A DNA stretch of 64,000 nt, taken from contig JAODMT010000004.1 of assembly GCA_025464975.1 (NCBI GenBank), forward strand, positions 372,001 through 436,000. The letters run 5' to 3'. Shown here in pieces: positions 3,426 through 35,662 of the stretch (its first letter is position 1; each line of letters begins with the position of its first letter). Both the position numbers and the translations under genes were made by a program. The DNA comes from Microbacteriaceae bacterium. GTDB lineage: Bacteria > Actinomycetota > Actinomycetes > Actinomycetales > Microbacteriaceae. The notes below the pieces were generated by a model. The model ran no database searches. It worked only from the letters and a program-made list of their open reading frames with translations, and had not been told where the DNA came from.

Positions 3426-3502
3426 AAAACGCAGGAGATTCACCACTTCGCGTGGCCATTCGAGCGGCAGGCGGTGCCGCGGTGGTGATTCTCCTGCGTT
3501 TT
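3426..3502. repeat. 77-bp inverted-end element, copy 1
   Basis: A left arm starting AAAACGCAGGAGATTCACC (21 bp, 3426-3446) and a right arm ending CTCCTGCGTTTT (21 bp, 3482-3502) are inverted repeats with one mismatch. They flank a 35-bp centre. The same arms, same mismatch, same orientation and same total length recur at 35586-35662, but the centres are unrelated. It lies between the clpP2 terminator and the 3' end of copC. No target-site duplication is visible. Confidence 0.85.
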
Positions 3503-3536
3503 CGGCGCACGACGGAAGCGGCGTGGCCACGCGCGG

Positions 3537-4211
3537 CTAGTCCGCCTCGGCCGGTCGGTGTTCGGGCGCGTCTTCGTCCTCATCGTCGCGTCTGCCTCGG
3601 CGGGCGAAAATCAGGGTCAGGATGACCGCTACCGCGACCGCGAGAAAGGCGCCGCCGATCCAGAGCACCGTCTGGAGCGTGCCGGAGTCGACGGTTCGTG
3701 ACGCCGACGTGCCCTGGCCACCGGCGGAAGGCGCTTCTAGTTTGATGGTTCCGTGGCAGTCCGGCACCCGGGTGCTCCCGGAGCTCGCCGTGAAGCCCTG
3801 CGGCGGCTTCCAGGTGAATCTGTAGGTGTCCGAGACGATGTGACTGTCGGTGGAGACCACTTGCCAGGTGACGGTGTAAGTCCCGCCGGCCCCGAGGGCG
3901 GCATTGGTGGTCATTGACGGCCCAGAGATGCGGATGCAGCCGTCGCCGTAGTACCGTCCGGCCGAATCCCTCACCTGCAGCGCGAAGCCGGAGCCGTTGC
4001 CGTCGATGTTGAGAAGCACATCGTTGGTCGTGATCTCGAACTCTGGCGGCAGTGTTGTGAGGGTCGCGCCCGCCGCGGGGGTGGAGGAGACGAGATAGTT
4101 GTGCGCCGCGGCCGGGGCGGCCGTGCCGAGCGCCGCCCCGGCGGTCGCGAGGCCAAGGACGGCGACGGCAATCCACGCAAAGCCTGCGATGGGGTGGATG
4201 CGCCGAGTCAC
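3537..4211 (-). CDS. copC: CopC-domain copper-binding exported protein with C-terminal anchor
   Basis: At 224 aa, it has a signal peptide cleaved near AAPAAA|HNYLV. The mature protein would then begin with His, the residue that in CopC proteins supplies a Cu(II) ligand. The CopC/YobA Ig-like domain follows (SSTPAAGATL, DSHIVSDTYRF), then a Ser/Gly linker, one membrane helix (TVLWIGGAFLAVAVAVILTL) and a charged cytoplasmic tail. It acts outside the membrane in copper binding or delivery. Its start overlaps the ycnI-like stop by 4 bp (ATGA), so the genes are translationally coupled. Direct copper binding is inferred from the family. Confidence 0.88.
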   Translation of the reverse strand: MTRRIHPIAGFAWIAVAVLGLATAGAALGTAAPAAAHNYLVSSTPAAGATLTTLPPEFEITTNDVLLNIDGNGSGFALQVRDSAGRYYGDGCIRISGPSMTTNAALGAGGTYTVTWQVVSTDSHIVSDTYRFTWKPPQGFTASSGSTRVPDCHGTIKLEAPSAGGQGTSASRTVDSGTLQTVLWIGGAFLAVAVAVILTLIFARRGRRDDEDEDAPEHRPAEAD

Positions 4212-4942
4212 GGCTGGCTCGCCTTTCGGGTTGCGCCGACCTGTGGCCGTGATCTCGGCCGGCGTGCGGTCACGGCGAGCACGATTCCGATGGCGCCCAC
4301 GACGAGTCCGCCGATTCCGAGGCCGCGGGCGATCGGGTCTCCCGACGCGGGCGGAGCGGCATCGGCAAGCATCGCGGCCGTCACCTCCGCGTCCGCGTCG
4401 TTGCTGGCCACCGGTGCGTCATTCACGTAGAGCACCGGGGCCGGGTGCTGGGAATCCGACCCGCTCTCGTTCCACCGGACTACCGTGCCGTCGCTGTAGG
4501 TCTGGGTGGCGGGAAGCCGGATCTTGCCCGTGTTGGGAACGGGACCGACCGACAGCGAGAACTGCTGCAGCTGGCCGTCGCGGATTTCGGATCCGGCATC
4601 CGCGGTCCAGATCACCCGCGTCACCGCGGTGGTCAGCTGATTGTGATCGATGGTGACCGGCTTCGGAAGGGTCTCCGATACGAGGTCGGTGGACCAGCCG
4701 GGCACCGGGACATAGCTGACGCTGGCGAACGGGGTGCCGGTGGGAATGTCGATCTCGAGCTTGGTCGTGGTGGCCGTGCTCGACTCGTTCGGCACTTTGA
4801 AGGTAATAACAGCGTACGAGCCTTGGTCGGCGCCGTACGGCGTGATCGTGACGTGAGCGCTGGCCGCGATCGGCACGGCAATGGCCAGTACGGCGCCCGC
4901 GCCGATGGCGATGGCGGCCTTGATCGGGGTGTTCAAATTCAT
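4208..4942 (-). CDS. YcnI-like (DUF1775) copper-binding exported protein
   Basis: A 244-aa exported protein with signal peptide MNLNTPIKAAIAIGAGAVLA and a mature N-terminus at HVTITP. The exposed N-terminal His is the copper ligand in Bacillus YcnI. The DUF1775 domain occupies about residues 30-160 and contains the invariant Trp (VPGWSTDL). A spacer and one C-terminal transmembrane helix (GLGIGGLVVGAIGIVLAV) with a basic tail follow. It is coupled to copC by an ATGA overlap and preceded by a polytopic membrane gene on the same strand. A YcnI/CopC pair is a recurrent copper-handling arrangement in actinobacteria. Confidence 0.88.
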   Translation of the reverse strand: MNLNTPIKAAIAIGAGAVLAIAVPIAASAHVTITPYGADQGSYAVITFKVPNESSTATTTKLEIDIPTGTPFASVSYVPVPGWSTDLVSETLPKPVTIDHNQLTTAVTRVIWTADAGSEIRDGQLQQFSLSVGPVPNTGKIRLPATQTYSDGTVVRWNESGSDSQHPAPVLYVNDAPVASNDADAEVTAAMLADAAPPASGDPIARGLGIGGLVVGAIGIVLAVTARRPRSRPQVGATRKASQP

Positions 4943-5050
4943 GATGGTCCTCGGCGTTCAGAAATCGCGGCAAACGGCGCCACAGATCGTGGCGTAGTGG
5001 GTTCGGAACCGCGTGGTGAAAAAACGGGTGCCCCGCAGAATGGGTGCGCC

Positions 5051-5677
5051 CTACGGGATTGGAGTGCGGACCGTGAGCCGCGGGGGACCACGGTGGCGGA
5101 GCGCCGAGAGCAGCTCATCGATCGGGCGCGGCAGCCGCGCCCGATCGATGGCAACGGTGTGCGGCCCGGACGGCGAAGTCGTGCCGATCGCGACCCGGAG
5201 ACCGAAGAGCCGGGTCAGCGCGAGTCGCGCGATTCGGAAGAGGTTCCAGAATGCGTGCTCACCGTAGCGCAAGGCGACGATCGTGACGGCGGCGGCGATC
5301 GCGTGCCCAACCCACATGCGCGCGTCGGTCGGCATGGGAACGGCCGCTTGCTGCGCCGGAACCGTGGCGGCGAATCCGGCGGAAACGTCCATGCTCATTC
5401 CGTGGCCGGCCGCCGGAGGGGCCGGGGCATCGGCGAGCAGACCGAACAGGCCGTGAAACAGAAACTGGCTGACCGCGACAGACACCGCCTGCCGCAGAAG
5501 GGAGAGGGTCTTACCCGCAAGGAGCACGCAAAAGATGGCCGAGAACGAGAGGCAGAGCGCGATGCCGGCGACACCGGGAATCGATCCTCCGGCCAGAGCA
5601 TGGGAGAACACGGCGACAAATGTCGACACGAGTGCGGCGATCCAGCCGCGAGCGAATCGCGCCCATCTCGTCGTCAT
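5051..5677 (-). CDS. polytopic membrane protein heading the YcnI/CopC cluster
   Basis: The family is not recognised. The protein is 208 aa with about four hydrophobic helices (near residues 10-30, 35-55, 62-82 and 120-140) and a Met/His-containing stretch (AGHGMSMDVS) between helices 3 and 4 that could bind metal. The C-terminal 60 residues are basic and cytoplasmic-looking. The start is preceded by GGGAG. It is transcribed toward ycnI and copC with a gap of about 108 bp, so an accessory role in copper handling is plausible but is only inference from context. Confidence 0.7.
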   Translation of the reverse strand: MTTRWARFARGWIAALVSTFVAVFSHALAGGSIPGVAGIALCLSFSAIFCVLLAGKTLSLLRQAVSVAVSQFLFHGLFGLLADAPAPPAAGHGMSMDVSAGFAATVPAQQAAVPMPTDARMWVGHAIAAAVTIVALRYGEHAFWNLFRIARLALTRLFGLRVAIGTTSPSGPHTVAIDRARLPRPIDELLSALRHRGPPRLTVRTPIP

Positions 5678-5956
5678 AGCGGCTCCCGGTGGCTCGTGTC
5701 CGTCTGAAGAAGTCTAAATCGGCTCACGGCGCCAGCGACCCGGGCCCGAACGCCGTCGCCCGACCTTCCACATTCTGTGCGGCGCCTTCTCGGCGGCGTG
5801 CGTCTTTTTGTGTGTCGCGAACCGTCATTTGCGACCAGTGTCGTCGACTCCGGCTAGGCTCAGTAATTGACCCACAGTAGCGTCATAAGACCGCTGATCC
5901 CCAGACCCGCCTTCCAGGGAAGAGCGGCAAGGGCCGATACCAGGAGGAGGCCGAGC
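5678..5956. promoter_or_regulatory. divergent intergenic region with clpX leader
   Basis: This 279-bp stretch separates the minus-strand copper cluster from clpX. It contains a GTCGC-N12-GCGAC inverted repeat (5814-5818 and 5831-5835) and a TAGGCT hexamer (5855-5860) that could be the clpX -10 box. No matching -35 is clear. AGGAGGAGG at 5942-5950 is the clpX ribosome-binding site. The start at 5957 is chosen over the upstream in-frame GTG for that reason and because the zinc-finger N-terminus begins there. Confidence 0.4.
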
Positions 5957-7234
<1,278 letters not shown>

Positions 7235-7299
7235 CAGGCCACGGCCGCGGGACCATCCGCCCATCCCGGGTTGGACCGCGAGTGGTTTCGAGGTTGCCC

Positions 7300-7305
7300 T
7301 AGGCT
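7300..7305 (+). promoter_or_regulatory. candidate -10 box (TAGGCT) upstream of the BenE-like gene
   Basis: TAGGCT fits the actinobacterial TANNNT -10 pattern and is shared with other genes in this window. It lies in the 179-bp gap between clpX and the transporter. A GAGAGAG sequence (7327-7333) downstream could be a ribosome-binding site. No good -35 was found. Confidence 0.3.
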
Positions 7306-7413
7306 GGACGGGTCCGCCGACCGTTCGAGAGAGCCCGATAGCCCATCGTCCTTCAGCCCATCATCGCGGGAATCGTTGCGGCCATCACCGGTTTCTCCAG
7401 CTCGTTCGCGATC

Positions 7414-8586
7414 GTGCTCGCCGGACTCGCAGCGGTCGGCGCATCGCACTCCGAGGCGTCATCCGGCCTGCTGATCATCTGCATCGCCCAAGGTGTGCTC
7501 GCTATCGTGCTCAGCCTGGTCTACCGGTTGCCGGTCAAGTTCGCCTGGAGCACGCCTGGGGCGGCACTGCTCGTGGCCACCGCCGGCATCACCGGCCGTT
7601 TCACCGAAGCGGTCGCCGCGTTCGTTGTCGCCGCGATCCTGATCATCGTCGTCGGACTGTGGCCCGCGCTCGAGAGGCTTATCGGGCGGATACCGCCGCC
7701 GATCTCGAACGCCATGGTCGCCGGCATTCTCTTTCCCCTCTGCCTGGCTCCCGTGACAGCGGCCGTGAACCTCCCCTTGCTCGCCCTCCCGGTCATCCTG
7801 GTCTGGCTCGTGCTGTACCGACTCGCACCGCGATGGGCCGTTCCGGCGGCCATCGTGCTGGCCGTTGTCCTCCTCGCCGCGACGGCGGGCACCGACTGGC
7901 TCCACGGCGCAAGACTGATGCCGCAGCTGGTCTTCGTCGCGCCGAGCTTTGATCTTCGTGTCGTCGTGAGCCTCGCCATTCCTCTCTTCATCGTGACGAT
8001 GGCTGGCCAGAACATCCCCGGAGCGATGATTCTGAACAGCTTCGGATATCGAACGCCGATGCGGGCGTCGCTGATCGGCTCCGGGGCTCTGTCGGCGGTC
8101 GGGGCGCTATTCGGCGGCATCACTATCAACCTCGCCGCGCTGACGCAGGCACTGACCGCCGGTCCGGAGGCATCGCCCGACCGGACGAAGCGGTGGATCG
8201 CGCCGGTGTCGGCCGGATGCACCTACATCGCGCTCGGCCTGCTCGCCGGGATCGCCACGGCGTTCGTGGCCGCATCGCCGCCGCTGCTGATCGAGGCGGT
8301 CGCCGGCCTCGCGCTGCTCGGCGCGTTGGTCGGCGCAGTGACGGCGGCGATGGAGAGTCCAGGCGGTCGGCTCTCGGCAATCGCCACCTTCCTGGTCACG
8401 GCATCCGGTATAACGCTCCTCGGCATCGGGTCCGCGTTCTGGGGGCTCGTGGTCGGCGCCGTCTTCGTGCTCTGGCTGGGGTGGACCAGGCGCCGCTCCG
8501 GCGGCCTTTTGCGGCAGGAGCGGGCCCGGCACGATGACGTTGAGGATGCGCCGGATGCAGCGGCGGCAGATCGGTCAGCGCAGTAG
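7414..8586 (+). CDS. benE: BenE-type benzoate/proton symporter homologue, N-terminus problematic
   Basis: A polytopic membrane protein with about 11 helices and BenE family features: GFSSSFAIVLAGL, FAWSTPGAALL and GGITINLAALTQAL. The family imports aromatic acids with protons, or remains uncharacterised. The first canonical start in frame (GTG, 7414) falls inside the first helix. Family-like residues (LQPIIAGIVAAITGFSSSF) are encoded upstream from 7351, but an in-frame TAG at 7339-7341 precedes them and no ATG, GTG or TTG lies between. Either an unusual start is used, or the 5' end carries a mutation or sequence error. The C-terminal tail is hydrophilic. Confidence 0.75.
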   Translation: MLAGLAAVGASHSEASSGLLIICIAQGVLAIVLSLVYRLPVKFAWSTPGAALLVATAGITGRFTEAVAAFVVAAILIIVVGLWPALERLIGRIPPPISNAMVAGILFPLCLAPVTAAVNLPLLALPVILVWLVLYRLAPRWAVPAAIVLAVVLLAATAGTDWLHGARLMPQLVFVAPSFDLRVVVSLAIPLFIVTMAGQNIPGAMILNSFGYRTPMRASLIGSGALSAVGALFGGITINLAALTQALTAGPEASPDRTKRWIAPVSAGCTYIALGLLAGIATAFVAASPPLLIEAVAGLALLGALVGAVTAAMESPGGRLSAIATFLVTASGITLLGIGSAFWGLVVGAVFVLWLGWTRRRSGGLLRQERARHDDVEDAPDAAAADRSAQ

Positions 8587-8591
8587 TTCCC

Positions 8592-10625
8592 CTAACAGAG
8601 GCCGCGGCGCTTCAGGAGGGGCTCGATCACGGCGTCACGACCGCGGAAGTCCCGGTAGGCCTCGAGGGCATCCTTCGATCCGCCGACGCCGAGCAGCAGG
8701 CTGCGGAATCGGTCGCCGTTGGCCCGGGTGAGTCCACCGTTCTCGGTAAACCAGTCCACCGTGTCGGCGTCGAGCACCTCGCTCCAGATGTAGGAGTAGT
8801 AGCCGGCGTCGTACCCTCCGGAGAAGGTGTGCGCGAAGTACGGGCTGGAATAGCGGGTCGGCACCGCCGGGTTTCCCAGGCCGACCGAGGCGAGAGCCTC
8901 GGCCTCAAACTCCATGACGTCGGCCACGGTATCGTCGGCGGTGATGCGGTGCCAGGCCTGGTCGAGCAGGGCCGCGGCGAGGTATTCGCTCGTCTTGAAT
9001 CCCTCGTTGAATGCCGACGATGCCTTGATGTTGTCCACGAACTCCTGCGGCATCGGCTCACCCGTCTCGACGTGCACGGCGTAGTTTGCGAGCACCTCCG
9101 GCCACAGCATCCACATTTCGTTGACCTGGCTTGGGAATTCGACGAAGTCGCGGAACACATTCGTCCCACCGAATTTGGGATAGGTCACTCGCGCGAACAG
9201 ACCGTGCAGCGCGTGACCGAACTCGTGGAAGAACGTGTTGACCTCGTCGTAGCTCAGCAGCGTCGGCTCGCCGCCGGCCGGCTTCGGAACGTTGAGGTTG
9301 TTGACGACAACGACCGGTTGGTCGAGGAGCGAGTTTTGCGTGACCAGCGGGTTCATCCAGGCGCCGCCTCGCTTCGAATCTCGCGTGTACAGGTCGAGAA
9401 CGTAGAGACCGACCGGGGAGCCGTCCTCGTCGCGGACCTCAAAGACGCGGGCGTCGGGATGGTACGCCACGAGGTCCTCACGTTCGGTGAACGTCACGCC
9501 GTAGACCCGGGTGGCGGCAAAGAAGACGCCGTCTCTCATCACGCGTTCCGCCTCGAAATACGGTCTCATCTTCGCCGTATCGACGTCGTACTTGGCCACC
9601 CGCACCTTCTCGGTGTAGTACGCCCAGTCGGCGTCGGCGATGGGAGTGCCATCCGGCACCATTGCCTGCAGGTCGGCCTGCTCGGCACCGGCGTTGCGGG
9701 CGGCGATCGGGGCGAGTCGATTGAGCATCGAGGAGACCGCCTCCGGGCTCTTGGCAGTCTCATCCGAGGTCACGTAGGCCGCGTGGTTCCCGAATCCGAG
9801 GAGGCGTGCCCGCTCGGCACGAAGACGCGTGATTTCGAGCACGATTTCGCGGTTGTCGTTGTCTCCGCCGCGGCTTCCGCGGGCGCGGGAGGCCTCCATG
9901 ATGCGCAGACGCACCGCCCGATTGGTCAGGGCATCCAGGTAGGGGTGCCCGGTCGGCAGCACGAGCGTGACGAGGTACTTTCCCTCAAGCCCTCGCTCCT
10001 TGGCGGCCTCCGCCGCGGCGGAGATTTCGCCCGGCCCGAGTCCGTCGAGCTCGGCGACATCGTCGATCACGACCGCCAGATCGTTCGTGTCCGCGAGGAG
10101 GTTCTTCTCGAATCGCGTGGTCAGCGTCGACAGCCGTTGGTTGTATTCGCGGAGGCGCACCTTGTCGGCCTCACCGAGACCGGCACCCGACCGGGAAAAC
10201 TCGGTGTGGTACCGCTCGACGAGGTATTTCGACTCGGCATCAAGATCGAGCTGCGGCAGTTGCTCGAACACGGTCTTAATTCGCGAGTACAGGCGGGAGT
10301 CGAGTTGGATGGCGTCGGAGTGCGCTGCGAGCTCTGGCGCAATCTCCTCCTCGAGCGCGTTGGTGAAGTCGTTGCTGTCGGACGAGTTCTTGTTGAAGAA
10401 CACGGTGGCGACGCGCTCGAGAATCTGTCCGGACTTCTCGAGGGGCACGAACGTGTTTTCGAAGGTGGGGGAGTCCGCTTGCTCGGTGATCTGAGCCACC
10501 TCCGCCAGTTGCTCGGCGAAGCCCGCGTCGAAGGCGGGCCGGTAGTGCTCATCTCGGATCTCCGCAAATGGCGGCAATCCGTAGGGAAGGGAGCTCGGTT
10601 CGAGGAAAGGATTCTGATCAACCAT
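8592..10625 (-). CDS. M3-family oligopeptidase (Dcp-like peptidyl-dipeptidase)
   Basis: A cytoplasmic zinc metallopeptidase of 677 aa, near the usual M3A length of about 680. The zinc motif HEFGH begins at His467 (FFHEFGHALHGLF), with the third ligand region downstream (EFPSQVNE). The C-terminal SGGYDAGYYSYIW is the Tyr-rich substrate-binding segment of Dcp and oligopeptidase A. It probably degrades short peptides, for example those released by Clp. Its start has a TAGGCT box 6 nt upstream and no Shine-Dalgarno sequence, consistent with a leaderless mRNA. It is convergent with the BenE-like gene, 5 bp apart. Confidence 0.93.
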   Translation of the reverse strand: MVDQNPFLEPSSLPYGLPPFAEIRDEHYRPAFDAGFAEQLAEVAQITEQADSPTFENTFVPLEKSGQILERVATVFFNKNSSDSNDFTNALEEEIAPELAAHSDAIQLDSRLYSRIKTVFEQLPQLDLDAESKYLVERYHTEFSRSGAGLGEADKVRLREYNQRLSTLTTRFEKNLLADTNDLAVVIDDVAELDGLGPGEISAAAEAAKERGLEGKYLVTLVLPTGHPYLDALTNRAVRLRIMEASRARGSRGGDNDNREIVLEITRLRAERARLLGFGNHAAYVTSDETAKSPEAVSSMLNRLAPIAARNAGAEQADLQAMVPDGTPIADADWAYYTEKVRVAKYDVDTAKMRPYFEAERVMRDGVFFAATRVYGVTFTEREDLVAYHPDARVFEVRDEDGSPVGLYVLDLYTRDSKRGGAWMNPLVTQNSLLDQPVVVVNNLNVPKPAGGEPTLLSYDEVNTFFHEFGHALHGLFARVTYPKFGGTNVFRDFVEFPSQVNEMWMLWPEVLANYAVHVETGEPMPQEFVDNIKASSAFNEGFKTSEYLAAALLDQAWHRITADDTVADVMEFEAEALASVGLGNPAVPTRYSSPYFAHTFSGGYDAGYYSYIWSEVLDADTVDWFTENGGLTRANGDRFRSLLLGVGGSKDALEAYRDFRGRDAVIEPLLKRRGLC

Positions 10626-10631
10626 CTCGCC

Positions 10632-10637
10632 AGCCTA
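10632..10637 (-). promoter_or_regulatory. -10 box for a probable leaderless mRNA (M3 peptidase)
   Basis: TAGGCT on the minus strand is followed by exactly 6 nt (GGCGAG) and then the ATG at 10625. Transcription would start at or within 1 nt of the start codon. Confidence 0.5.
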
Positions 10638-10756
10638 GGTGCCGAAAGCGTCCGTACAGATCGAGCCCGATTGCGAGCCCGATTGCGAGCGCGAAAGTGG
10701 GCGCAGAAATGTCGGTGGTCGATCGTAACGTCGACACCAAGAAAGAGGTGAAACTG

Positions 10757-10993
10757 ATGACATCCACAATCGTTATGCACCGCGCAGCTACTGCGCTGGC
10801 CGTGCGCCGGGCACGGCCACGGGGCCTCGATCGTGTCGTGATGCGACTCGGCGTGGCCATGTTTCGCTGGGCCCGTCGGCGCGCCGACCGCTCCGCCCTG
10901 TCATTCGAGGACCACGCGCTGTTGATGCAGAACGCGCGGCAACTCGAGTTGAGGGAGCGGGGCTACACGGTGATTGCGCACCGTGTTCTTTAG
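10757..10993 (+). CDS. small basic protein of unknown function
   Basis: A 78-aa Arg-rich protein (MTSTIVMHRAATALAVRRAR...) with an amphipathic central helix (LGVAMFRWARRRADRS) and no recognised domain. The ATG at 10757 is chosen because AGAGGTG lies 7 nt upstream. An upstream in-frame ATG would give a low-complexity N-terminus overlapping the opposing M3 gene. It sits alone between divergent and convergent neighbours. A short helical protein could be membrane-associated, but nothing else can be said. Confidence 0.6.
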   Translation: MTSTIVMHRAATALAVRRARPRGLDRVVMRLGVAMFRWARRRADRSALSFEDHALLMQNARQLELRERGYTVIAHRVL

Positions 10994-11014
10994 CGCCTTC
11001 TTCAGTGCTCGGAA

Positions 11015-11272: not shown

Positions 11273-11274
11273 AG

Positions 11275-20705: not shown

Positions 20706-20710
20706 CGGAC

Positions 20711-25953: not shown

Positions 25954-25956
25954 TGA

Positions 25957-27712: not shown

Positions 27713-28696
27713 TCACAAGCGGTGAATCACGTCCAAACGAAGCTGGGCGATGATGGCGATCACGACGAAGCAGATCAGCGTGATCAAGGGGATGAACGTG
27801 TACGCGGTGGCGAAGAAGGAACGCGCCCGGGCTGGAACGGGGATGTTGCCGGACCTCAAGTTGTGCAGGGTCACGAGCCAGAACCCCGGGATCGTCACGG
27901 CCCACGTGGCCATGCACCACGGGCAGAGCGTGCCAAGGGCAAAAATGCTCTGGTAGATCAGCCAGATGATGAGGGCGAGCGCCCCGGCGACGCCGACATT
28001 CATGGCGATCCAGAACCAGCGGGCAAACGACACCCCGGAGAGGATCAGTGCGCCGATGACGAAAACGGCGATCCAGCCGCCGATTCCGAGAAGCGGGTTG
28101 GGGAATCCGAATAGCGAGCCCTGCCAGGAACCGAGGTTCTTGCCACACGACACGAGCACGCTGAGATTGCAGCTCGGCGCGACGGTCGGGTTGGTGAAGG
28201 TTCCCACCTTATCCACGGTGAGACGGAAGGCGGCGAAGAACCCGATGGTCGAGAGCACCGTGAGCGATACGCCGAGCCCGGCGAAGCTGCCGTTCGGCTG
28301 GAAGCGACGGATGGCGACGGCGAGGGCCACGGCCATGAGAAGCAGCTGCACAAGCAGCAGCCAGGTGAACGCGAGGTAGGCCGCCCACAGCACGAACACG
28401 ACTCCAACCGAGAAGACGACGACTAGCGCCGTCCACCAGCTCTGGGGGAGGCGCGCGCCCGACAGCTGCGCGGCGCCGACCGCCAGGACCACGACGAAGA
28501 TGACCATGGCGAACGCGGAAGACGGGTACCCGAGTTCGTTGTCCGCGCCGATCAGCTTGGGCGTTCCGGACGCCGACTCGATCCCGACGAAGGCCGCAAC
28601 CGTGGCAATGAAAGACGCCAGCACGCCGAGTGCCCCGACCGCGGTAAGAACGATCGTTCCACCGTTGGCGCGGAAGGATCGCTCGATCGTGGGCAC
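27713..28696 (-). CDS. vitamin K epoxide reductase (VKOR) family membrane protein with N-terminal helical extension
   Basis: A 327-aa polytopic protein. The C-terminal half carries the VKOR features: a cysteine pair in CNLSVLVSCG with SLFGFPNPLLGI following, and the redox CPWC in LCPWCMATW. In bacteria it reoxidises DsbA-like proteins and passes electrons to quinone. The N-terminal 150 residues add about four extra helices not found in minimal VKORs. The dsbA-like gene follows 109 bp downstream on the same strand, a typical actinobacterial pair. Confidence 0.9.
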   Translation of the reverse strand: MPTIERSFRANGGTIVLTAVGALGVLASFIATVAAFVGIESASGTPKLIGADNELGYPSSAFAMVIFVVVLAVGAAQLSGARLPQSWWTALVVVFSVGVVFVLWAAYLAFTWLLLVQLLLMAVALAVAIRRFQPNGSFAGLGVSLTVLSTIGFFAAFRLTVDKVGTFTNPTVAPSCNLSVLVSCGKNLGSWQGSLFGFPNPLLGIGGWIAVFVIGALILSGVSFARWFWIAMNVGVAGALALIIWLIYQSIFALGTLCPWCMATWAVTIPGFWLVTLHNLRSGNIPVPARARSFFATAYTFIPLITLICFVVIAIIAQLRLDVIHRL

Positions 28697-29082
28697 ACAC
28701 GGATTATTGCATGGGCCAAATGCCGCGTTACTCGTAATGCATGCGATAATTTGAGTAAGTCACCCGAGCCGCGCTCGACGTGGCACCAAAAGAATGCTTA
28801 CCGGGCACCAACCCGGGCCATGCAGAATCGGCGTCGATCAGAAGAAGATCGACCCGCATTGATGGCGTGTCGGATAGCCAGTTCCGAGCAGAATTACCAC
28901 AAACGAGCGAAACCAGAGCCAGCCCCAGCGTGTCACAGCGACCGGGGGCCGGGGGCCGGTTTCGGAGCGTAATGATTAGCGGCACATTTGCTGAGGCACC
29001 AGTTCGCCGAGGTTTTGATCCGCACGAGAGAGTACCCGACGGGCAGCGCGGCTCCCCGATCCGGCCAAGGAGTGCACCAGAA
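28697..29082. promoter_or_regulatory. 386-bp divergent region: VKOR promoter side and long rne leader
   Basis: TTACTC (28728-28733) and GAGTAA (28753-28758) form an inverted repeat around an AT-richer segment containing GATAAT (28745-28750), a -10-like hexamer facing rne. The remaining 320 nt up to the rne start would be a long 5' leader with GC-rich hairpin potential (ACCGGGCACCAACCCGGGC near 28800). An open frame continues upstream through this leader in phase with rne, but it lacks a ribosome-binding site and is Ser/Arg-rich. Long leaders mediate RNase E autoregulation in other bacteria; that role here is inference. Confidence 0.4.
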
Positions 29083-31929
29083 ATGGTGGAGACAACTACA
29101 GATAACAATGACGGTGCGGCAAACGAACCGAAGAAGCGTCCGCGCCTATTCGGCGGTCGCCGGGCCAAGGCAAGCGCGTCCGCAGTGGTGCCGCCAATCG
29201 CGGCGCCGACAGAGTCCGTGCCGGACCAGCAGGTCGCGGCCCTGCCTGTCGCCGTCGAGCCGGTCACGGTCGATACCCGCGCGGCCGACGCCGGCAAGGC
29301 CGACGCAGCGAATCTGATCGCCGTCAACGCCGATATGAACAACGCCGATACGAACAACGGCGACGTGACGACGAAAACCCAGCCGGCAAAGCGCGCTCCG
29401 GCGCGCCGCACGCCCGCAAAGGCCACGACCGCCGCGACGAGTTCAGACTCCGCGCCGGCCTCTTCGACCGATCACCAGGCCTCGACCGATCCGACTTCGG
29501 ACGAGGATGCCGCAGTCGCGCCCGCCAAGAAGACAACACGAAGCCGAGCCAAGAAACCCGAGGTGGCGCCGGCCTCCGAAGAAACCCCGGTCTCCTCGGA
29601 CGCTATCGCCGTCGAGACGCCGCGGAAGGCCCCGCCGGCTCGCCCGTCCACCTCACTGCTTTTCCAGGCGCCCGATCTGCCGGTGTTGCCGCCGCGCCGC
29701 GCCGGCCGAGATGACGACCTCGACGACGAACCGCGCGAGAACAACCGCAATCAGCGCGGCGACCGCAACCAGCGCGGCGACCGCAACCAAAGCGATGACC
29801 GCAACCAGCGCGACGACCGGGACGACGACGGTGAACCGACGACGCTCCGTCGCCGCTCTCGCCGCCGTGCCGGGGACGAAGACCGTGAGCCGGGCGGCTC
29901 CGGCAACGGCAACCCCACTAACACGGTGGTCAAGGTTCGCACGCCGCGTCCGCCGCAGGAGCAGAGCAACGAGCCGACGAAGGTTCGCGGCTCGACCAGG
30001 CTCGAGGCCAAGAAGCAGCGCCGTCGCGATGGGCGGGACGCCGGTCGCCGCCGCCCCGTGATCACCGAGGCCGAATTCCTGGCTCGTCGGGAGAGCGTCG
30101 ACCGCGCAATGGTGGTTCGCTCCAAGTTCAACCGCATCCAGATCGGCGTTCTGGAGGACGGTGTGCTCGTCGAGCACTATGTCGCAAAGGCTGCCGACGC
30201 GAGTCTCATCGGGAACGTCTACCTCGGGCGGGTGCAGAACGTGCTTCCGAGCATGGAAGCCGCGTTCGTGGACATCGGACGCGGTCGCAACGCCGTGCTC
30301 TATTCCGGAGAGGTCGACTGGGATGCCGCGGCCGAGAACTCGACCGACGGCAAGAGCCAGGCCCGCCGTATCGAACTTGCGCTCAAGCCCGGTGACAAGG
30401 TGCTCGTTCAGGTCACCAAGGATCCGGTCGGTCACAAGGGGGCGAGGCTCACCAGCCAGGTCAGCCTGCCGGGTCGCTACCTCGTCTACGTGCCGAACGG
30501 CTCGATGAACGGCATTTCGCGCAAGCTGCCGGATACCGAGCGAGCCCGTCTCAAGAAGATTCTCAAGGAGGTGCTTCCCGAGAACGTCGGCGTGATTGTG
30601 CGCACCGCGGCCGAGGGCGCCACCGACGAGCAACTGACGCTCGACGTCAACCGGCTCACCGCCCAGTGGGCAGCGATCAGCCAGACCCTCGAGTCCGTGC
30701 AGGCGCCCGCGCTCCTTCACAGCGAACCGGATCTGCTCGTCAAGATCGTGCGCGACGTCTTCAACGAGGACTTCGACAAGCTCGTCATCGAGGGTGAGGA
30801 CGCCGAGGCGACGATCAAGACGTACCTCGCGCAGATTGCGCCGGACCTCGTCGACCGGGTGCAGACCTACGAAGGCACCGTCGACTCGTTCGATGAGTTC
30901 CGCATCACCGAGCAGATCGAGAAGGCGCTCGACCGCAAGGTCTGGCTGCCCTCCGGCGGGTCACTCGTGATCGACCGCACCGAGGCAATGACCGTTGTCG
31001 ACGTCAACACCGGCAAGTTCGTCGGGTCGGGCGGGAACCTCGAAGAGACCGTCACGAAGAACAACCTCGAGGCTGCCGAGGAGATCGTTCGACAGCTTCG
31101 CTTGCGCGACATCGGCGGCATCATCGTTGTCGACTTCATCGACATGGTGCTCGAGTCGAATCGCGACCTCGTGCTTCGCCGTCTCGTGGAGAGCCTGAGC
31201 CGCGACCGCACCAAGCATCAGGTCGCGGAGGTGACCTCGCTCGGTCTCGTGCAGATGACGCGGAAGAAGCTCGGACTCGGCCTCGTCGAGTCGTTCAGCG
31301 AGCCCTGTGAATTCTGTGCCGGCCGCGGAATCATCATCCACCACGACCCGGTCACGAAGCACCGTCAGTCCGCCCAGCCGGAGACCCCGCGTCGCGGTCG
31401 CGGCAAAGGCGGCAACGGGGGCAACGGCGGCGGCAACGGCGGAGGCAACGGGGGAGACTCCGGTCGCTCCAACGGCAACTCGGCCGGCTCCGCCCAAAAA
31501 ACCAACAGCGGCGGAACCCACGCCATCACTGACGACGTGAAGAACGCTCTCGCGCAGATCGCGGCCTCGACCATCGCCCACTCCACAGCGGAGGAGGATG
31601 CCCCGGCAACGGCCGGCGTCGAGACCCCCGCTATCGAGGCGCCGGCTGGTGAGACCGTGCAGCCCGTCGTGGAGACTCCCGTGGTCGAAGAGGTGACGAT
31701 CGCCGCCGCCGAGAAAGCGGTGGAGATTCTCGACATCCCGGTGAAAAAGAATGCTCGCGGTCCGCGACGCATCTCTACTCACGACGCCGAGCAGATTCTG
31801 GACTCGGTGCTCGACGCGCTTCCCGAGCCGAAGCAGCCGGGGCAGGGCCGTTCGCGCGTGTCCCGTCGGGCGTCGAGTGCCGGCACGGTGCGTACCTCCG
31901 AGTCCTCCGCCACTTCTGAGGAGCCCTAG
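29083..31929 (+). CDS. rne: ribonuclease E/G family endoribonuclease
   Basis: The central endonuclease of RNA processing and decay, 948 aa. Residues 1-330 are disordered, Ala/Pro/Lys-rich with an NRNQRGD tandem repeat, the RNA-binding scaffold seen in actinobacterial RNase E. The S1 domain follows (QIGVLEDGVLVEHYV, IGNVYLGRVQNVLPSMEAAF). The catalytic DNase I-like domain has two acidic magnesium sites (VVDVNTGKFVG and VVDFIDM). The zinc-link CEFC (CxxC) joins subunits. The Gly/Asn-rich C-terminus holds a short conserved end. The start at 29083 is set by AAGGAG 10 nt upstream. Confidence 0.95.
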   Translation: MVETTTDNNDGAANEPKKRPRLFGGRRAKASASAVVPPIAAPTESVPDQQVAALPVAVEPVTVDTRAADAGKADAANLIAVNADMNNADTNNGDVTTKTQPAKRAPARRTPAKATTAATSSDSAPASSTDHQASTDPTSDEDAAVAPAKKTTRSRAKKPEVAPASEETPVSSDAIAVETPRKAPPARPSTSLLFQAPDLPVLPPRRAGRDDDLDDEPRENNRNQRGDRNQRGDRNQSDDRNQRDDRDDDGEPTTLRRRSRRRAGDEDREPGGSGNGNPTNTVVKVRTPRPPQEQSNEPTKVRGSTRLEAKKQRRRDGRDAGRRRPVITEAEFLARRESVDRAMVVRSKFNRIQIGVLEDGVLVEHYVAKAADASLIGNVYLGRVQNVLPSMEAAFVDIGRGRNAVLYSGEVDWDAAAENSTDGKSQARRIELALKPGDKVLVQVTKDPVGHKGARLTSQVSLPGRYLVYVPNGSMNGISRKLPDTERARLKKILKEVLPENVGVIVRTAAEGATDEQLTLDVNRLTAQWAAISQTLESVQAPALLHSEPDLLVKIVRDVFNEDFDKLVIEGEDAEATIKTYLAQIAPDLVDRVQTYEGTVDSFDEFRITEQIEKALDRKVWLPSGGSLVIDRTEAMTVVDVNTGKFVGSGGNLEETVTKNNLEAAEEIVRQLRLRDIGGIIVVDFIDMVLESNRDLVLRRLVESLSRDRTKHQVAEVTSLGLVQMTRKKLGLGLVESFSEPCEFCAGRGIIIHHDPVTKHRQSAQPETPRRGRGKGGNGGNGGGNGGGNGGDSGRSNGNSAGSAQKTNSGGTHAITDDVKNALAQIAASTIAHSTAEEDAPATAGVETPAIEAPAGETVQPVVETPVVEEVTIAAAEKAVEILDIPVKKNARGPRRISTHDAEQILDSVLDALPEPKQPGQGRSRVSRRASSAGTVRTSESSATSEEP

Positions 31930-31960
31930 GCTGTCGCGCCGCATTCCGGCGGAGGCCCCA

Positions 31961-31966
31961 TAAGAT
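31961..31966 (+). promoter_or_regulatory. -10 box for a probable leaderless mRNA (DUF318 permease)
   Basis: TAAGAT is followed by 7 nt and then the GTG start at 31974. No Shine-Dalgarno fits between. The spacing matches the other leaderless candidates. Confidence 0.4.
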
Positions 31967-31973
31967 TTCGAGG

Positions 31974-32996
31974 GTGGGTACTCGGGTAGAGGAGCGAAAG
32001 CGAGTCTTCCGGGCACCCACCATCACCGGACTGGTCGTCGGGTTACTCGGCATTTCGGCGGTCTTCGCCGTTCGAGCCCTGACCCCCGGGCTTGGCAAGT
32101 GGTCGCTTCCGAACCAGCTGCAGGACCTCCTCACGCTGAGCATCAGCGTGATCGTGGAATCGCTGCCGTTCGTGATCCTCGGCATTCTCCTTTCGATCGC
32201 GGTGCAGGTTTGGATTCCCGACCGCTGGATCATGCGGGTTCTGCCGCGTAACGCGTTCCTGCGTCGCACCGTGATCTCATTCCTCGGCATTTTCCTTCCG
32301 GTGTGCGAGTGCGGCAACGTGCCGCTCGCTCGCGGGCTCATCGTCAAGGGCTTTACGGTTTCCGAGTCGATGACCTTTCTGCTCGCGGCCCCGATTCTCA
32401 ACCCGATCACGATCCTGACTACCGGCCAGGCATTCGGATTCGGCAGCTGGGTCTTTGTTGCCCGAATCGTCGGCGGCTTCGCGATCGCCAACATCCTCGG
32501 ATGGCTGTTTTCGAAGCATCCGGATCAGGACAGCCTGCTCACCGATCGCTTCGCCGCCGAGTGCCGACTCCCCGACGCGCACGAGCACGACCAGACGCGC
32601 TGGCAGAAGAGCGTCGAACTCTTCACGCGGGAGTGTGGGGTCATCATGCCGGCGATGTTCATCGGCTCCCTCGTCGCCGGCCTCGTGCAGGTCGCGGTTC
32701 CGCGGGCTATTCTGCTCGGCCTCGGCAGCAATCCCGTGTGGTCGATCCTGGCCATGATGGCGCTCGCCTTCGTGATCTCCGTGTGCTCCACCGTCGACGC
32801 GTTCTTCATCCTGCCGTTCGCGAGCACCTTCATGCCGGGCTCGATCGCCGTATTCCTGGTGTTCGGACCGATCATTGACATCAAGATGCTCACGCTGATG
32901 CGCACGACCTTCACCGCGAGGGTGCTTGTGCGTCTCACCGTCATTGTCGGGCTGCTCAGCGCCCTGATCGGATTGGTCATCAACTATGTGGCGTAA
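31974..32996 (+). CDS. DUF318/YraQ-type permease
   Basis: A 340-aa membrane protein with about eight helices and the paired motifs of this permease family: LPVCECGNVPLARGL (first half) and VCSTVDAFFILPFA (second half), an internal duplication. Members are proposed metal or oxyanion permeases; the substrate here is unknown. A His-rich cytoplasmic loop (DAHEHDQTRW) lies in the middle. Its stop overlaps the next gene, a TIGR03943 protein, by 11 bp, reproducing the two-gene unit found in Bacillus (YcgR/YcgQ). Confidence 0.85.
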   Translation: MGTRVEERKRVFRAPTITGLVVGLLGISAVFAVRALTPGLGKWSLPNQLQDLLTLSISVIVESLPFVILGILLSIAVQVWIPDRWIMRVLPRNAFLRRTVISFLGIFLPVCECGNVPLARGLIVKGFTVSESMTFLLAAPILNPITILTTGQAFGFGSWVFVARIVGGFAIANILGWLFSKHPDQDSLLTDRFAAECRLPDAHEHDQTRWQKSVELFTRECGVIMPAMFIGSLVAGLVQVAVPRAILLGLGSNPVWSILAMMALAFVISVCSTVDAFFILPFASTFMPGSIAVFLVFGPIIDIKMLTLMRTTFTARVLVRLTVIVGLLSALIGLVINYVA

Positions 32997-33759
32997 CAGA
33001 CTGTGGCGTTCGATTCAGCGCTGGCAGGGCATCGCCCTCGTGATCGCGGCTCTCGTGGCGACGGTGTGGCTCGCCTGGACGAACCAGCTGATCCTGTACA
33101 TCAATCCCAGTTACATCGTGTTCACCGTGATCATGGGCGCGATCGGACTCGTCTTCGTCGTGGCGAGCTTCGTCACCAAGGCGGATCACAACCACGATCA
33201 CGATCTCGATGAACCGCGTCGCCGGTTCAGCGGCCCGCTGTCCGTCGTCGCAACGCTGCTGACCCTCTTTGTGGCGGCCGGTCTCGTCGTCGTGCCGCCG
33301 GCCACCCTGACGACCGCGACTGCGGATCAGCGAGTGGTGAACAGCACCGGGGTCGGAACGGGGACCAAGACGGTGGGGGCCGCGGCATCCGCCCCCACCG
33401 GAGCGTTTGCCAAGTTCACCGTTGAAGACTGGTCGTCGTTGCTGCGCCAGACCACCGACGCAAGCTTCTACCAGAACAAGACAGCGGATGTCGTCGGCTT
33501 CATCTCGAAGGACCCGGACGACCCCGACAACGTTTTTTACGTCACCCGATTTGTCATCACCTGCTGCGCCGTCGACGCGCAGCCGGTGGGCGTTCCGGTG
33601 TACCTGCCCAACTGGAAGAGCACGCTCCGCACCGATCAGTGGGTGAAGGTCGTTGGGGCCTTCGACACCAATCCGAGCAGTAAGAGCCAGCAGGCGATTG
33701 CCCTCGTTCCGACATCGACGACCAAAGTGGACCAGCCGAGTGACCCATACCTCTATTGA
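32986..33759 (+). CDS. TIGR03943-family membrane-anchored protein (YcgQ-like)
   Basis: A 257-aa protein. Two N-terminal helices (15-32 and 40-60) flank a His-rich segment (KADHNHDHDLD) that could bind zinc or another metal. A third helix lies near 82-102. The extracytoplasmic C-terminal domain carries FVITCCAVDAQPVGVPV, the Cys-Cys signature of the family. It is coupled to the upstream permease, and the pair probably acts together in metal transport or sensing; this is inferred from conserved pairing. The next gene starts inside its 3' end. Confidence 0.85.
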   Translation: MWRNRLWRSIQRWQGIALVIAALVATVWLAWTNQLILYINPSYIVFTVIMGAIGLVFVVASFVTKADHNHDHDLDEPRRRFSGPLSVVATLLTLFVAAGLVVVPPATLTTATADQRVVNSTGVGTGTKTVGAAASAPTGAFAKFTVEDWSSLLRQTTDASFYQNKTADVVGFISKDPDDPDNVFYVTRFVITCCAVDAQPVGVPVYLPNWKSTLRTDQWVKVVGAFDTNPSSKSQQAIALVPTSTTKVDQPSDPYLY

Positions 33760-35170
33760 GCCCAACCGCGGCTCCGGCACGGCGGGGGGCGCGAGCGACC
33801 GACCGTACCGTCGAGCGCTCGCCACCACGGTCACCACCCTGGTCGTGCTCGTGGCGGTGTTCGCCGGCCTGAACTACCTGCAGGGTCCCAAGCTCGCGAG
33901 TGCCCAGGTGGACTCGAGTCGCGTCGTCGCCCAATCGGGTCAACAGTTGCGACTGTTCGCCAACCAGAGCATCACGGCGGTGAGGAAGAGCCAGGTGAGG
34001 GTGACGCCGGCCTCCCCGTTCACGGTCAGCAGTTCCGGTGACGTCATCGCCGTGCAGTTCAGCAATCGGCTGCTCTACGGCACCAGTTACACGGTCAAGG
34101 TCGACGGGGTCGGTAATGGCGCCCAGCCTCGCACGACGAACTTTGCCTACTCGTTCCGCACGCCAGCCGCCCAGGTCTACTACCTGGATCGAGCCGATCC
34201 CAGGACGGGCGGTCCGGACGAGATCGTGAAGACGAGCCTCACGGGGAATGCTCGCACCGTCGTCTACTCGGCCCCGCGCATCCAGCAGTTCGTCGTCTTC
34301 CCTCAGGCGATCGCCGTGACGACACTCGGGGACGATGGCACGAGCGCGCTCTCCCTCGTCAGCCTTGACAAGGGTTTCGTCGCGAAGCTGCTGCTGCCCG
34401 GCAGCGGCACAATCGACGAGTTGCAGGGGGCGAACGCTGCGGGCGTCGTCGGCTTGACCTTCACCAGCAGCGGCCCTGCCGCCGAACGTGAATTCAACGA
34501 CACCCTGATGACCGTCAACCTGACCGGCGCGCAAACCGTCGATCCGGTGCTCGATCTCGCCGGCAAACCGCTCCAGGTCCTGACCTGGTCGTTCGTGACC
34601 GGAAGCCCAAGCATTGTCGCGCAGAGCACCGACCAGACGGTGTTTCTCATCGATCCGACAAAGCCGGGTTCCATAGTGCCGCTCGGCCAGTATCAGGATC
34701 TCGGCGGCAGCGCGCCGGATGGCAAGTCGATAGTGGTGAGCGACATTTACGGCAAGATCGCCTATTCGCTCTCCTCCGGCAAGGAAACTCGGTTGCCTTC
34801 GCTGCCCATGGCCGGCGCGACGACCTACGGGGGAGAGGCGGAACTCATCGGCTCCGGAACTGCTCGCGTGCAGCAGGTGGCCGTGCCCGACAGCACCGGC
34901 AGCGGCCGCTACCAGAGCTTCCTTGTGCTCGAGGACGGCACCCAGACCCGCATGCTGTTTCAACCTGCGGATGAGAAGGGCAGCATTCAGGGATTCAGCG
35001 TGTCCCCGAACGGGCAATACGTTGCCGTCAACGTGATCCCCGACTTCGCCGCGAGTGTCTCCGACAACTACGCGGTGGATGCCCAGTCGACCTCGATCTC
35101 CACCATCTTCATCGATATCAAGAGTGGAACCGTGGTTCGGAGCGTGACGGGATTCGAGGAGAGCTGGTGA
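33740..35170 (+). CDS. anchored extracytoplasmic protein with Ig-like and beta-propeller-like domains
   Basis: A 476-aa protein. A basic N-terminus is followed by one membrane helix (ALATTVTTLVVLVAVFAGLNYL), an Ig-like domain (about 50-125, with FTVSSSGDVIAVQFSNRLLYGTS split by turns) and then repeated beta-strand blades resembling a WD40/PD40-type propeller (SPNGQYVAVNV near the end). Function unknown. The GTG at 33740 lies 20 bp inside the TIGR03943 gene, so it belongs to that operon and may be a surface partner of the permease pair. No ribosome-binding site is evident; coupling may supply ribosomes. Confidence 0.7.
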   Translation: MTHTSIEPNRGSGTAGGASDRPYRRALATTVTTLVVLVAVFAGLNYLQGPKLASAQVDSSRVVAQSGQQLRLFANQSITAVRKSQVRVTPASPFTVSSSGDVIAVQFSNRLLYGTSYTVKVDGVGNGAQPRTTNFAYSFRTPAAQVYYLDRADPRTGGPDEIVKTSLTGNARTVVYSAPRIQQFVVFPQAIAVTTLGDDGTSALSLVSLDKGFVAKLLLPGSGTIDELQGANAAGVVGLTFTSSGPAAEREFNDTLMTVNLTGAQTVDPVLDLAGKPLQVLTWSFVTGSPSIVAQSTDQTVFLIDPTKPGSIVPLGQYQDLGGSAPDGKSIVVSDIYGKIAYSLSSGKETRLPSLPMAGATTYGGEAELIGSGTARVQQVAVPDSTGSGRYQSFLVLEDGTQTRMLFQPADEKGSIQGFSVSPNGQYVAVNVIPDFAASVSDNYAVDAQSTSISTIFIDIKSGTVVRSVTGFEESW

Positions 35171-35171
35171 A

Positions 35172-35441
35172 CTAGCGTTCCCGCCGCTCTCGTTGGGACA
35201 CCCGCAGCCCGCTGGACTGAAGCCGCTTCACCAGTTCCCGATTGCTCACCGGCGCGGCGCCTGCTTCCACAAGGTCGTCGTACCGCCGAGCTGGAACGTC
35301 GTAGTGGTCACGGTCGAAGGCTCGGCGCTGAAGACCCACTCGCTCGGCAAACTCGTGCAGCTCCGAAAGAGAGCTGTCGCTCACGAGGTGGGACCAGAGC
35401 GTGTCGTGAGCCGGCCACCGCGGCTGGTCAATCAGTATCAC
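35172..35441 (-). CDS. DUF4031 small protein
   Basis: An 89-aa cytoplasmic protein matching the actinobacterial DUF4031 pattern (WPAHDTLWSHLVSDSSLSEL, FDRDHYDVP, near-terminal VSNRELVKRL). Function unknown. The GTG at 35441 is chosen because AGGGGG lies 8 nt upstream and family members start at this point. Longer readings starting at 35474 or 35609 are possible, but the latter would begin inside the 77-bp repeat. It is convergent with the propeller gene, 1 bp apart. Confidence 0.75.
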   Translation of the reverse strand: MILIDQPRWPAHDTLWSHLVSDSSLSELHEFAERVGLQRRAFDRDHYDVPARRYDDLVEAGAAPVSNRELVKRLQSSGLRVSQRERRER

Positions 35442-35585
35442 GCGTGCCACCCCCTGCTGATTCGATTCCGGCATCCCTGGCCGTCTCTCGCACCGGTTGC
35501 TCTCATTCTCGACCATGGCCGACAGGCTGACCATCGCGTATCCGATTCGGACTTCATCGAGGGGCGTTGCCACGCGGCGTTCCCG

Positions 35586-35662
35586 AAAACGCAGGAGATT
35601 CACCACCACAGTCGTCTTTTCCGGCCGGGTTTCGCCGAGGTGTGGTGATTCTCCTGCGTTTT
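35586..35662. repeat. 77-bp inverted-end element, copy 2
   Basis: The left arm (35586-35606) and right arm (35642-35662) are identical to those of the copy at 3426-3502, including the single arm mismatch and the orientation. The 35-bp centre differs. It lies between the 5' end of the DUF4031 gene and the promoter of the next plus-strand gene, so it is not limited to convergent gene ends. Confidence 0.85.

Follow-up and report, generated by a model that had tools for sequence, protein, structure and literature searches.

The two 77-bp palindromic sequences found in the window (the whole analysed stretch of 64,000 nucleotides) are members of an old dispersed family that probably has a dedicated nuclease as its partner. 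The element and the nuclease gene are genetically linked and have co-evolved, and by analogy we read the system as REPIN-RAYT-like, built on a restriction-type nuclease. The features discussed are collected in Table 1.

Table 1. Position of the palindromic elements, their parts and the candidate partner gene (window numbering unless a contig is named).
Feature	Position	Strand	Remarks
Copy 1, 77-bp palindromic element	3426..3502	+	Arm match; G000:C17:375426-375502
Copy 1 left arm, AAAACGCAGGAGATTCACCAC	3426..3446	+	Same sequence as copy 2 left arm
Copy 1 centre, 35 bp	3447..3481	.	Shared within a subfamily (G000: 11 copies, 10 places)
Copy 1 right arm, GTGGTGATTCTCCTGCGTTTT	3482..3502	+	T/T mismatch with left arm
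Unit copied in copy 1 subfamily (approximate)	3416..3507	.	From pairwise identity per 5-bp blocks
Perfect 17-bp hairpin, outside the element	3362..3399	.	Between upstream gene and copy 1; terminator-like, without a T-run behind
Copy 2, 77-bp palindromic element	35586..35662	+	Arm match; G000:C17:407586-407662
Copy 2 left arm	35586..35606	+	Same as copy 1 left arm
Copy 2 centre, 35 bp	35607..35641	.	11/35 bases match copy 1 centre
Copy 2 right arm	35642..35662	+	Same as copy 1 right arm
Candidate partner nuclease gene	G000 C3:584418-585347		Adjoins manA, between element copies

Dispersed palindromes of fixed length

The window comes from a genome (G000; assembly 96% complete) of the genus of Lacisediminihabitans profunda. 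Both copies are as originally described, 77 bp long with 21-bp left arms identical to each other and right arms likewise, and the match between their centres is near chance. Searching by the arms enlarges this first observation to about 47 copies in the genome: 46 paired by the arm search, and one with a damaged arm (L040). A model search yields 94 matches over both strands, in agreement with 47 copies; it scored 150 out of 2265 candidates and may therefore have passed over a few weak ones. Copy number within the genus ranges from 0 to 54, and relatives of the element occur in at least 40 of the 299 Microbacteriaceae genomes searched (15 candidates scored per genome, E<=1e-4; 259 without a match). 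Two hits from a pattern scan, in Oscillospiraceae (L108, 16.5 bits) and Polyangiaceae (L112, no match), were discarded as chance. As for a phage origin, the arm pattern has no exact match in viral_contigs.

After reduction of 103 element records in the genus to 90 distinct copies, all 90 are 76-77 bp long; the centre measures 35 bp in 75 of them and 34 bp in 15, while anything from 25 to 45 bp was permitted. Arms evolve slowly, flanks fast, and centres at an intermediate rate. Between G000 and G010 there are 18 orthologous pairs, 16 of which were used for these rates, with 14/672 differences in arms, 56/556 in centres and 179/1174 in flanks; L021/L067 and L039/L080 were excluded, as the sequence adjoining the element has no alignment. 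Since the arm pattern had found many of the G010 copies, arm conservation was rechecked at the positions which that pattern leaves free, where 7/256 differ. Orthologous copies retain recognizable centres, the G000-G010 comparison of centres covering the 14 equal-length pairs of the 18. At loci shared by species 69-83% alike, the arms differ at 4/42 positions in each of four pairs and match each species' own version, and the centres differ at 18-27 of 34-35 positions.

Copies in unrelated contexts have in common both the centre and 5-15 bp beyond the arms, in a comparison of 17 rows whose centres looked similar by eye and which were picked for that reason (L068 and L071, both from G010, resemble orthologues of L040 and L050). 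A fast-changing centre is thus common to unrelated contexts, and therefore the unit itself is copied: whole elements, centre included, have gone into unrelated sites. In the subfamily of copy 1, the unit overhangs the 77 bp by approximately 10-15 bp on the left and 5 bp on the right. The centre had been proposed to be either exchangeable or free to drift. Drift holds, and exchange is ruled out by the subfamily's shared centre and by the centres recognizable in orthologues.

The element also lies in frame within mutM in four species and within smc in three, and it is missing from smc in five, so that filled and empty versions of genes exist among relatives. In G000, two of 46 copies fall within called ORFs, mutM being one. 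There was no sign of a target-site duplication, an excision product or an identical pair that had moved recently; by eye the flanks have no prominent direct repeats at the junctions, and the comparison of filled and empty smc is blurred by low complexity. The suggestion of a mobile REP/MITE-like element is supported by the roughly 47 dispersed copies, the whole-unit copying and the filled and empty coding genes. The T/T mismatch between arms fares differently: initially described as constant, it is in fact one of 19 arm combinations and the most frequent, with 14 of 46 copies. Because the mismatch varies within the family, its proposed use as a signal distinguishing left from right is not supported. 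As to a possible replication-linked orientation, the T/T-type copies on the contig of the window (C17) all point one way, but how a contig is oriented is arbitrary and few of them are independent.

The linked nuclease

At manA, a nuclease gene is bracketed by elements in four genomes (G000, G004, G006 and G002). The candidate partner protein has an AbiEi-like N-terminal region followed by a nuclease domain (DUF559/MTES_1575, Vsr-like) that is likely of PD-(D/E)XK type, as predicted from domain matches and from the invariant acidic residues E214, D241, E251 and D253. Among 16 members of the family, PF18741 (MTES_1575) matches 13 and PF04480 (DUF559) 12 at E<=0.1 for both, AbiEi_4 matches 7 and Vsr 1; the Lacisediminihabitans nuclease lies below the Pfam cut-off for DUF559 (16.5 vs 20.6 bits). 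L210 was excluded from the protein alignment, having stop codons within the nuclease range, and a single-sequence structure model (pLDDT 34.5) is unusable.

The linkage was examined with a de novo flank test that is blind to the arms. Among 30 Microbacteriaceae nuclease loci, palindromes are found on both sides in 16 and on either side in 26, and a common 15-mer or longer occurs in 20. Palindromes on both sides occur in 0/25 control genes, 0/1000 random places and 0/27 outer ends of these nuclease loci. The single sides, counted separately, give 2 and 1 of 25 genes, 15 and 20 of 1000 places, and 1 and 1 of 27 outer ends, and sharing is seen in 0/25 genes, 7/1000 places, 2/27 outer ends and 21/600 comparisons between different loci. 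Three loci (L179, L180 and L202) are cut by contig ends, and the flanks of L179 were scored from wrong gene coordinates (the true region is 1014-1925), an error that works against the linkage claim. Six extra loci in G000, G004 and G007 include four with palindromes on both sides, one with none (L212) and one with a palindrome 0.5 kb off (L207). The same layout with other arms is found in six further actinobacterial families, in a class-level set with 500-bp flanks and a control; in that set, one of six Microbacteriaceae loci has palindromes on both sides. In G020 a close nuclease lacks palindromes, and G112 has weak palindrome matches only, about 1.2 kb from the nuclease. Dispersal is weak in one of the other families: G422 has five arm matches, four in the pair beside the nuclease, and G454 has eight, with none in four congeners.

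Arms resemble each other more where nucleases are closer (Mantel r=-0.36, 0/5000 permutations, n=35; shared host kinship may contribute), the set being the 35 of 64 loci with at least 60 bits and at least one palindrome. The three nucleases of one genome, G004, go with three different arm types. Within the genus, copy number is weakly linked to nuclease presence, with rank test p values of 0.025, 0.046 or 0.071 depending on which incomplete genomes are retained; the first such test omitted G010, G003 and G009 likewise have no manA match, and the test was repeated in these three ways. Elements are also found where the nuclease is not: the G007 assembly, 98% complete, lacks a close nuclease and has 20 copies, and there are 17 copies in G001, 8 in G009, 3 in G003 and 2 in G011. 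The idea of a binding site for an unknown recombinase comes close, with the DUF559/MTES_1575 nuclease that the element brackets as the likely partner that would bind it.

Proposed mechanism and its alternatives

From this arrangement we infer that the nuclease binds and mobilizes the element. Its target would be double-stranded DNA with the two inverted arms a set distance apart, the centre serving mainly as spacer. Cutting by the nuclease, followed by host repair or some joining step, may then spread both the unit and, enclosed by two copies, the nuclease gene; most copies would nowadays be inherited vertically. Counting against this explanation, no PD-(D/E)XK nuclease is known to join DNA on its own. 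On a broader scale, it may be, with a confidence just short of even, that a large actinobacterial class of DUF559/MTES_1575 nucleases, each with its own bracketing and co-evolving palindrome, is a new kind of mobile or selfish DNA, one that relies on a restriction-type nuclease instead of a transposase to spread and maintain short palindromes fixed only in their two arms and spacing.

Alternatively, the nuclease would bind the palindromes, as operators, decoys or protection sites, and would not move them. Its AbiEi-like N-terminus would bind to regulate its own gene, and the dispersed sites would act across the genome, for instance to control the nuclease or to mark DNA as self. AbiEi proteins do autoregulate via inverted-repeat binding, and the flanking position, the arm co-evolution, the slow change of arms at fixed loci and a spacing that suits a protein complex all fit; still, this is unlikely given a fast-changing centre common to unrelated contexts, in-frame copies in mutM and smc, and the occupation of both sides of the gene, including a 3' end for which an operator has no need. 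We find it improbable that a conventional transposase that escaped detection in G000 moves the elements as its MITEs, with the nuclease gene as a passenger between two copies. A nuclease family bracketed by unrelated palindromes across many genera and several families, and arms that track the nuclease, are not what chance capture predicts. Among the matches listed (100 of 115, in an assembly 96% complete), no two solitary arms are neighbours that could mark an autonomous parent; those with 0-1 mismatches are on three different contigs (L018, which is decayed, L025 and L043). The Y1 transposase, the only transposase family covered, is absent from G000 (Y1_Tnp, PF01797: 0 matches; as a control, the profile is positive in 5/14 genomes). 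Such MITEs would nonetheless account for the terminal inverted repeats, the dispersal as a unit, the one nuclease locus in the genus and the persistence of copies in G007, and an assembly that is 96% complete could lack a transposase gene.

Readings that set the nuclease aside fare worse. When symmetric and all column pairs are considered, only arm pair 17-61 stands out, eleven other arm pairs being uninformative because one side is invariant; symmetric centre pairs show no covariation, and a few offset pairs reach z 3-5 among thousands. Covariation confined to pair 17-61 gives no support to the RNA hairpin that had been put forward as a candidate. Bidirectional intrinsic terminators or other structured RNA are very improbable: with this limited covariation go a loop kept at 34-35 bp despite its varied sequence, copies within the coding genes mutM and smc, and Rfam, which has no match at the elements and matches only a tRNA in the window. 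In their favour are the architecture of A-tract, stem and T-tract and the 17 of 46 copies between convergent genes (25 are co-directional and 4 divergent, by a simple gene caller and without a genome baseline). The original doubt about a pure terminator role is borne out by the perfect 17-bp hairpin that already precedes copy 1 by 26 bp, separate from the element. Sites for a host chromosome-organising protein, with a secondary nuclease link, would explain slow arms and constant spacing at fixed loci and a density of roughly one element per 70 kb in G000, but they are likewise very improbable where one genus holds anything from 0 to 54 copies and 259/299 family genomes have no match in the search described above, and the nuclease linkage would be left unexplained.

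Dispersed palindromes are widespread in bacteria, many without a known mover. From the tie between one such family and a gene family of "unknown function" follows a predicted function for many DUF559/MTES_1575 genes, as well as a mechanism testable with one purified protein, one 77-bp DNA and natural specificity swaps, which are ready-made because arms differ from lineage to lineage. Should the nuclease move the elements, dispersal would be driven by a restriction-type enzyme and no transposase would be needed; should it do no more than bind them, dozens of sites for an unrecognized DNA-binding nuclease would exist in actinobacteria. The element also offers cases of palindromes tolerated within core proteins (smc and mutM), and an example of a spacer with constant length and changing sequence.

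Comparison with known systems

REPIN-RAYT systems are described as inverted-repeat units around a spacer, dispersed mainly between genes and tied to specific enzyme genes (Bertels and Rainey 2011, PMC3116915). The element is likewise a dispersed inverted pair with a spacer, linked to a candidate cognate enzyme gene of another class: the predicted partner is a PD-(D/E)XK-type nuclease rather than a Y1/HUH RAYT, total length is fixed, and loop pairing has no covariation support. REP units carry GTAG or CGTC tags (title of PMC3733652); neither motif is in AAAACGCAGGAGATTCACCAC or its common G000 variants on either strand, and the arms of G085 and G112 have CGTC on one strand. MITEs, as reviewed in PMC10969869, are short and dispersed, with terminal inverted repeats, and sometimes lie within genes, all of which applies to the element. 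It differs in that neither a parent insertion sequence nor a target-site duplication was found for it, and in that orthologous copies keep their arms as the centre changes. The same review presents Rickettsia palindromic elements of about 150 bp, in frame in unrelated protein genes; the element resembles them in mutM and smc, and differs from that description in its 77 bp, its nearly always intergenic copies and its linked nuclease.

On the enzyme side, the likeness to DUF559, REase_MTES_1575 and Vsr-like proteins (PF04480, PF18741, PF03852) lies in domain matches and conserved acidic residues. Titles and abstract openings of papers retrieved on these nucleases contain no mention of linked palindromes, and Vsr is reported to work in mismatch repair (PMC12907096). 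In addition, the predicted nuclease would have relatives by fold class whose behaviour is selfish. Homing endonucleases with the Vsr fold (EDxHD) spread their own gene, a likeness to the selfish nuclease gene proposed here, with the difference that here many short non-coding palindromes would be spread.

Spread and anatomy of the element

The original prediction described two 77-bp sequences with 21-bp inverted arms, and both sequences match that description exactly. Further copies, on which the idea of a mobile unit depended, are indeed present: the genome of the window (G000) carries about 47. The arm search gives 46 complete pairs, L040 adds a copy with a damaged arm, and the covariance model has 94 matches when both strands are counted. 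Across the Microbacteriaceae, matches are found in 40 of 299 genomes and 22 of 78 genera (E≤1e-4; 15 candidates scored per genome). Tandem pairs or triplets spaced by 115-147 bp, and one decayed copy, are listed in the table.

Positions of individual features
Feature	Locus	Positions	Remark
Element, first copy	window	3426-3502	
Element, second copy	window	35586-35662	
tRNA-Ala (GGC) gene	window	45622-45696	unrelated to elements
Tandem elements	L050	1561-1761	flanks part of repeat
Tandem elements	L045	1546-1769	
Tandem elements	L122	160-483	
Decayed copy, left arm only	L018 (G000, contig C2:286620)	~1520-1560	intact counterpart in G010 (L113), flank and centre start similar
Related element within tilS-like reading frame	L144 (G268)	1501-1586	peptide ...GESPAFS..., resembling mutM and smc insert peptides

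Although lengths of 25-45 bp were permitted, the centre measures 35 bp in 75 of 90 distinct copies from the genus and 34 bp in the other 15. This fixed length points to recognition of the two arms on double-stranded DNA. In a set of 53 copies 77 bp long, the invariant arm positions include 4-11, 67-72 and 74, the most variable being 12, 14, 64 and 66, and a short symmetric ACYS/SRGT adjoins the arms in the flanks. The arm sequence varies by genus, with both sides changing together (CGCAGG, CGAAGG, CGACGG, TGCAGG and GCGAGG, for example). In a covariation test, pairing between symmetric centre positions does not rise above shuffled expectation, and the sole covarying arm pair, 17-61, reflects a between-species change (eleven other arm pairs cannot be judged). 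The T/T mismatch between arms, called constant in the original prediction, occurs in only 14 of 46 G000 copies and is one of 19 combinations. On contig C17 of G000 the T/T-type copies all have the same direction, which could be replication-linked or due to chance.

Copying of the unit and change at orthologous loci

Seventeen copies were picked because their centres are alike, 11 of them from 10 places in G000 (the first window copy among them) and 6 from G010. Their surroundings are mostly unrelated: beyond 10-15 bp on the left side and about 5 bp on the right, similarity is no higher than background, and therefore the element has been copied as a whole unit. It also lies in frame within genes, with mutM copies in G000, G010, G004 and G006 and smc linker copies in G006, G002 and G008. 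In the other genomes with a readable linker (all but G005, G011 and G012), it has no element in G000, G010, G003, G004 and G009, and by eye it carries other palindromes in G007 and G001. The G001 linker (L173) contains four VDLSGLSSAE-type repeats and an unrelated palindrome of the GGTTTCGATACGC...GCTACTCAACC type (by eye), and so palindromes may enter the smc linker more often than other places. The G007 palindrome (L166, CTCCGGAG type by eye) resembles the one that flanks a G007 nuclease gene (L210), which itself bears stop codons.

DNA flanking orthologous loci of G010 and G000 is about 92-98% identical. In 16 orthologous pairs, base differences amount to 2.1% in the arms, 10.1% in the centres and 15.2% in the flanks. 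Since the arm pattern had itself found many G010 copies, the arm count was redone at positions left unconstrained by the search, where 7 of 256 differ (2.7%). The centre drifts, as foreseen, but it changes more slowly than the flanks (p=0.003) and is therefore not wholly free. Four loci are shared with more distant species, with flanks 69-83% alike. There the element keeps its position, each comparison shows 4 differences among 42 arm bases, the arms being the species' own version, and 18-27 of the 34-35 centre positions have changed. The mutM element has an identical centre length of 34 bp in four species. Separate conversion of two 21-bp arms with the centre left untouched is implausible, so that a trans-acting factor co-evolving with the arms would be the simpler reading.

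Nuclease genes between palindromes

The candidate partner is encoded beside manA. The element-nuclease-element order is seen there in G000, G004, G006 and G002, and in the first three of these the downstream element encodes the last codons and the stop of the gene. The protein matches DUF559 below the cut-off; 16 aligned homologues match MTES_1575 (13), DUF559 (12), AbiEi_4 (7) and Vsr (1) at E≤0.1, and their invariant residues include E214, D241, E251 and D253. In G011, manA immediately precedes galE, with neither nuclease nor element, and G007, G001 and G005 have no nuclease at manA. In G012, which has no detected element, another ORF (L255, DUF222-like by eye) occupies the position of the nuclease cassette of relatives.

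Copy numbers in the genus are halved covariance model matches, and are lower bounds because 150 candidates were scored per genome, several assemblies being incomplete. They stand at 47, 9, 18, 9 and 54 where a close nuclease (E<1e-100) is present (G000, G004, G006, G002 and G008), at 20, 17, 8, 3, 2, 0 and 0 where none was found (G007, G001, G009, G003, G011, G012 and G005), and at 29 in G010, likewise without a find. G010, G003 and G009 gave no match to manA either. One-sided rank tests, uncorrected for kinship, give p=0.046 for all genomes, 0.025 without G010 and 0.071 without the three manA-less genomes, lending weak support to a link between copy number and nuclease presence.

A homologue occurs in 119 of 199 Microbacteriaceae genomes (E≤1e-10), and a close one in ten (E<1e-50). 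Elements lie on both sides of six of these ten loci (L177, L178, L179, L181, L182 and L184) and on one side of L186 and of L180, which is cut by a contig end; L183 and L185 have no adjacent element. When flanks were searched de novo for palindromes, without reference to arm sequence, 16 of 30 nuclease loci had them on both sides and 26 on at least one; 20 flank pairs had a common 15-mer or longer. For window genes, random window places and the outer ends of the same loci, the corresponding figures were 0/25, 0/1000 and 0/27 for both sides, 2 and 1 of 25, 15 and 20 of 1000, and 1 and 1 of 27 for single sides, and 0/25, 7/1000 and 2/27 for sharing. Flanks of different loci shared sequence in 21 of 600 comparisons, some having related arms. 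Six more nuclease loci come from G000, G004 and G007. Palindromes flank four of them on both sides, with an arm type particular to each locus; at L207 a single palindrome lies roughly 0.5 kb off, and none accompanies L212. Many homologues (L191, L195, L196, L197, L198 and others) have in-frame stops within the matched range, which suggests frequent decay of the gene.

Across the class, the nuclease occurs in 54 of 148 genomes. With 500-bp flanks, palindromes lie on both sides of 8 of 23 loci outside the Microbacteriaceae, six of which, from six families, have an arm sequence common to both sides (L222, L228, L230, L234, L241 and L243); 10 of the 23 share a 15-mer or longer. Controls with flanks of equal length gave 0/1000 places and 0/22 outer ends for both sides, and 5/1000 and 0/22 for sharing. 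Within the same set, one of six Microbacteriaceae loci (L219) has palindromes on both sides. Dispersal is modest in the genomes tested, with five arm hits in G422 (four beside the nuclease), eight in G454 and none in four congeners.

Binding, mobilisation and known systems

G004 alone has three nucleases with three arm types (L177, L208 and L209), and therefore arm type follows the nuclease, not the host. Arm similarity also falls with greater nuclease distance (r=-0.36 for n=35, a value that none of 5000 permutations reached). The linkage and co-evolution of element and nuclease are taken as shown, with high confidence. That the nuclease also mobilises the element is likely, at roughly even odds, the main rival being that it only binds the elements.

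Among the papers listed on DUF559, on MTES_1575 and on AbiEi with palindromes and endonucleases, PMC12907096 included, titles and abstract openings mention no such system, most subscription papers being outside this scope. RAYT is absent from G000. REPINs are dispersed inverted-repeat units with the gene of an enzyme, RAYT, beside them (PMC3116915). The element resembles them in being a dispersed inverted-repeat unit with an enzyme gene alongside, but its partner enzyme is of a different kind.
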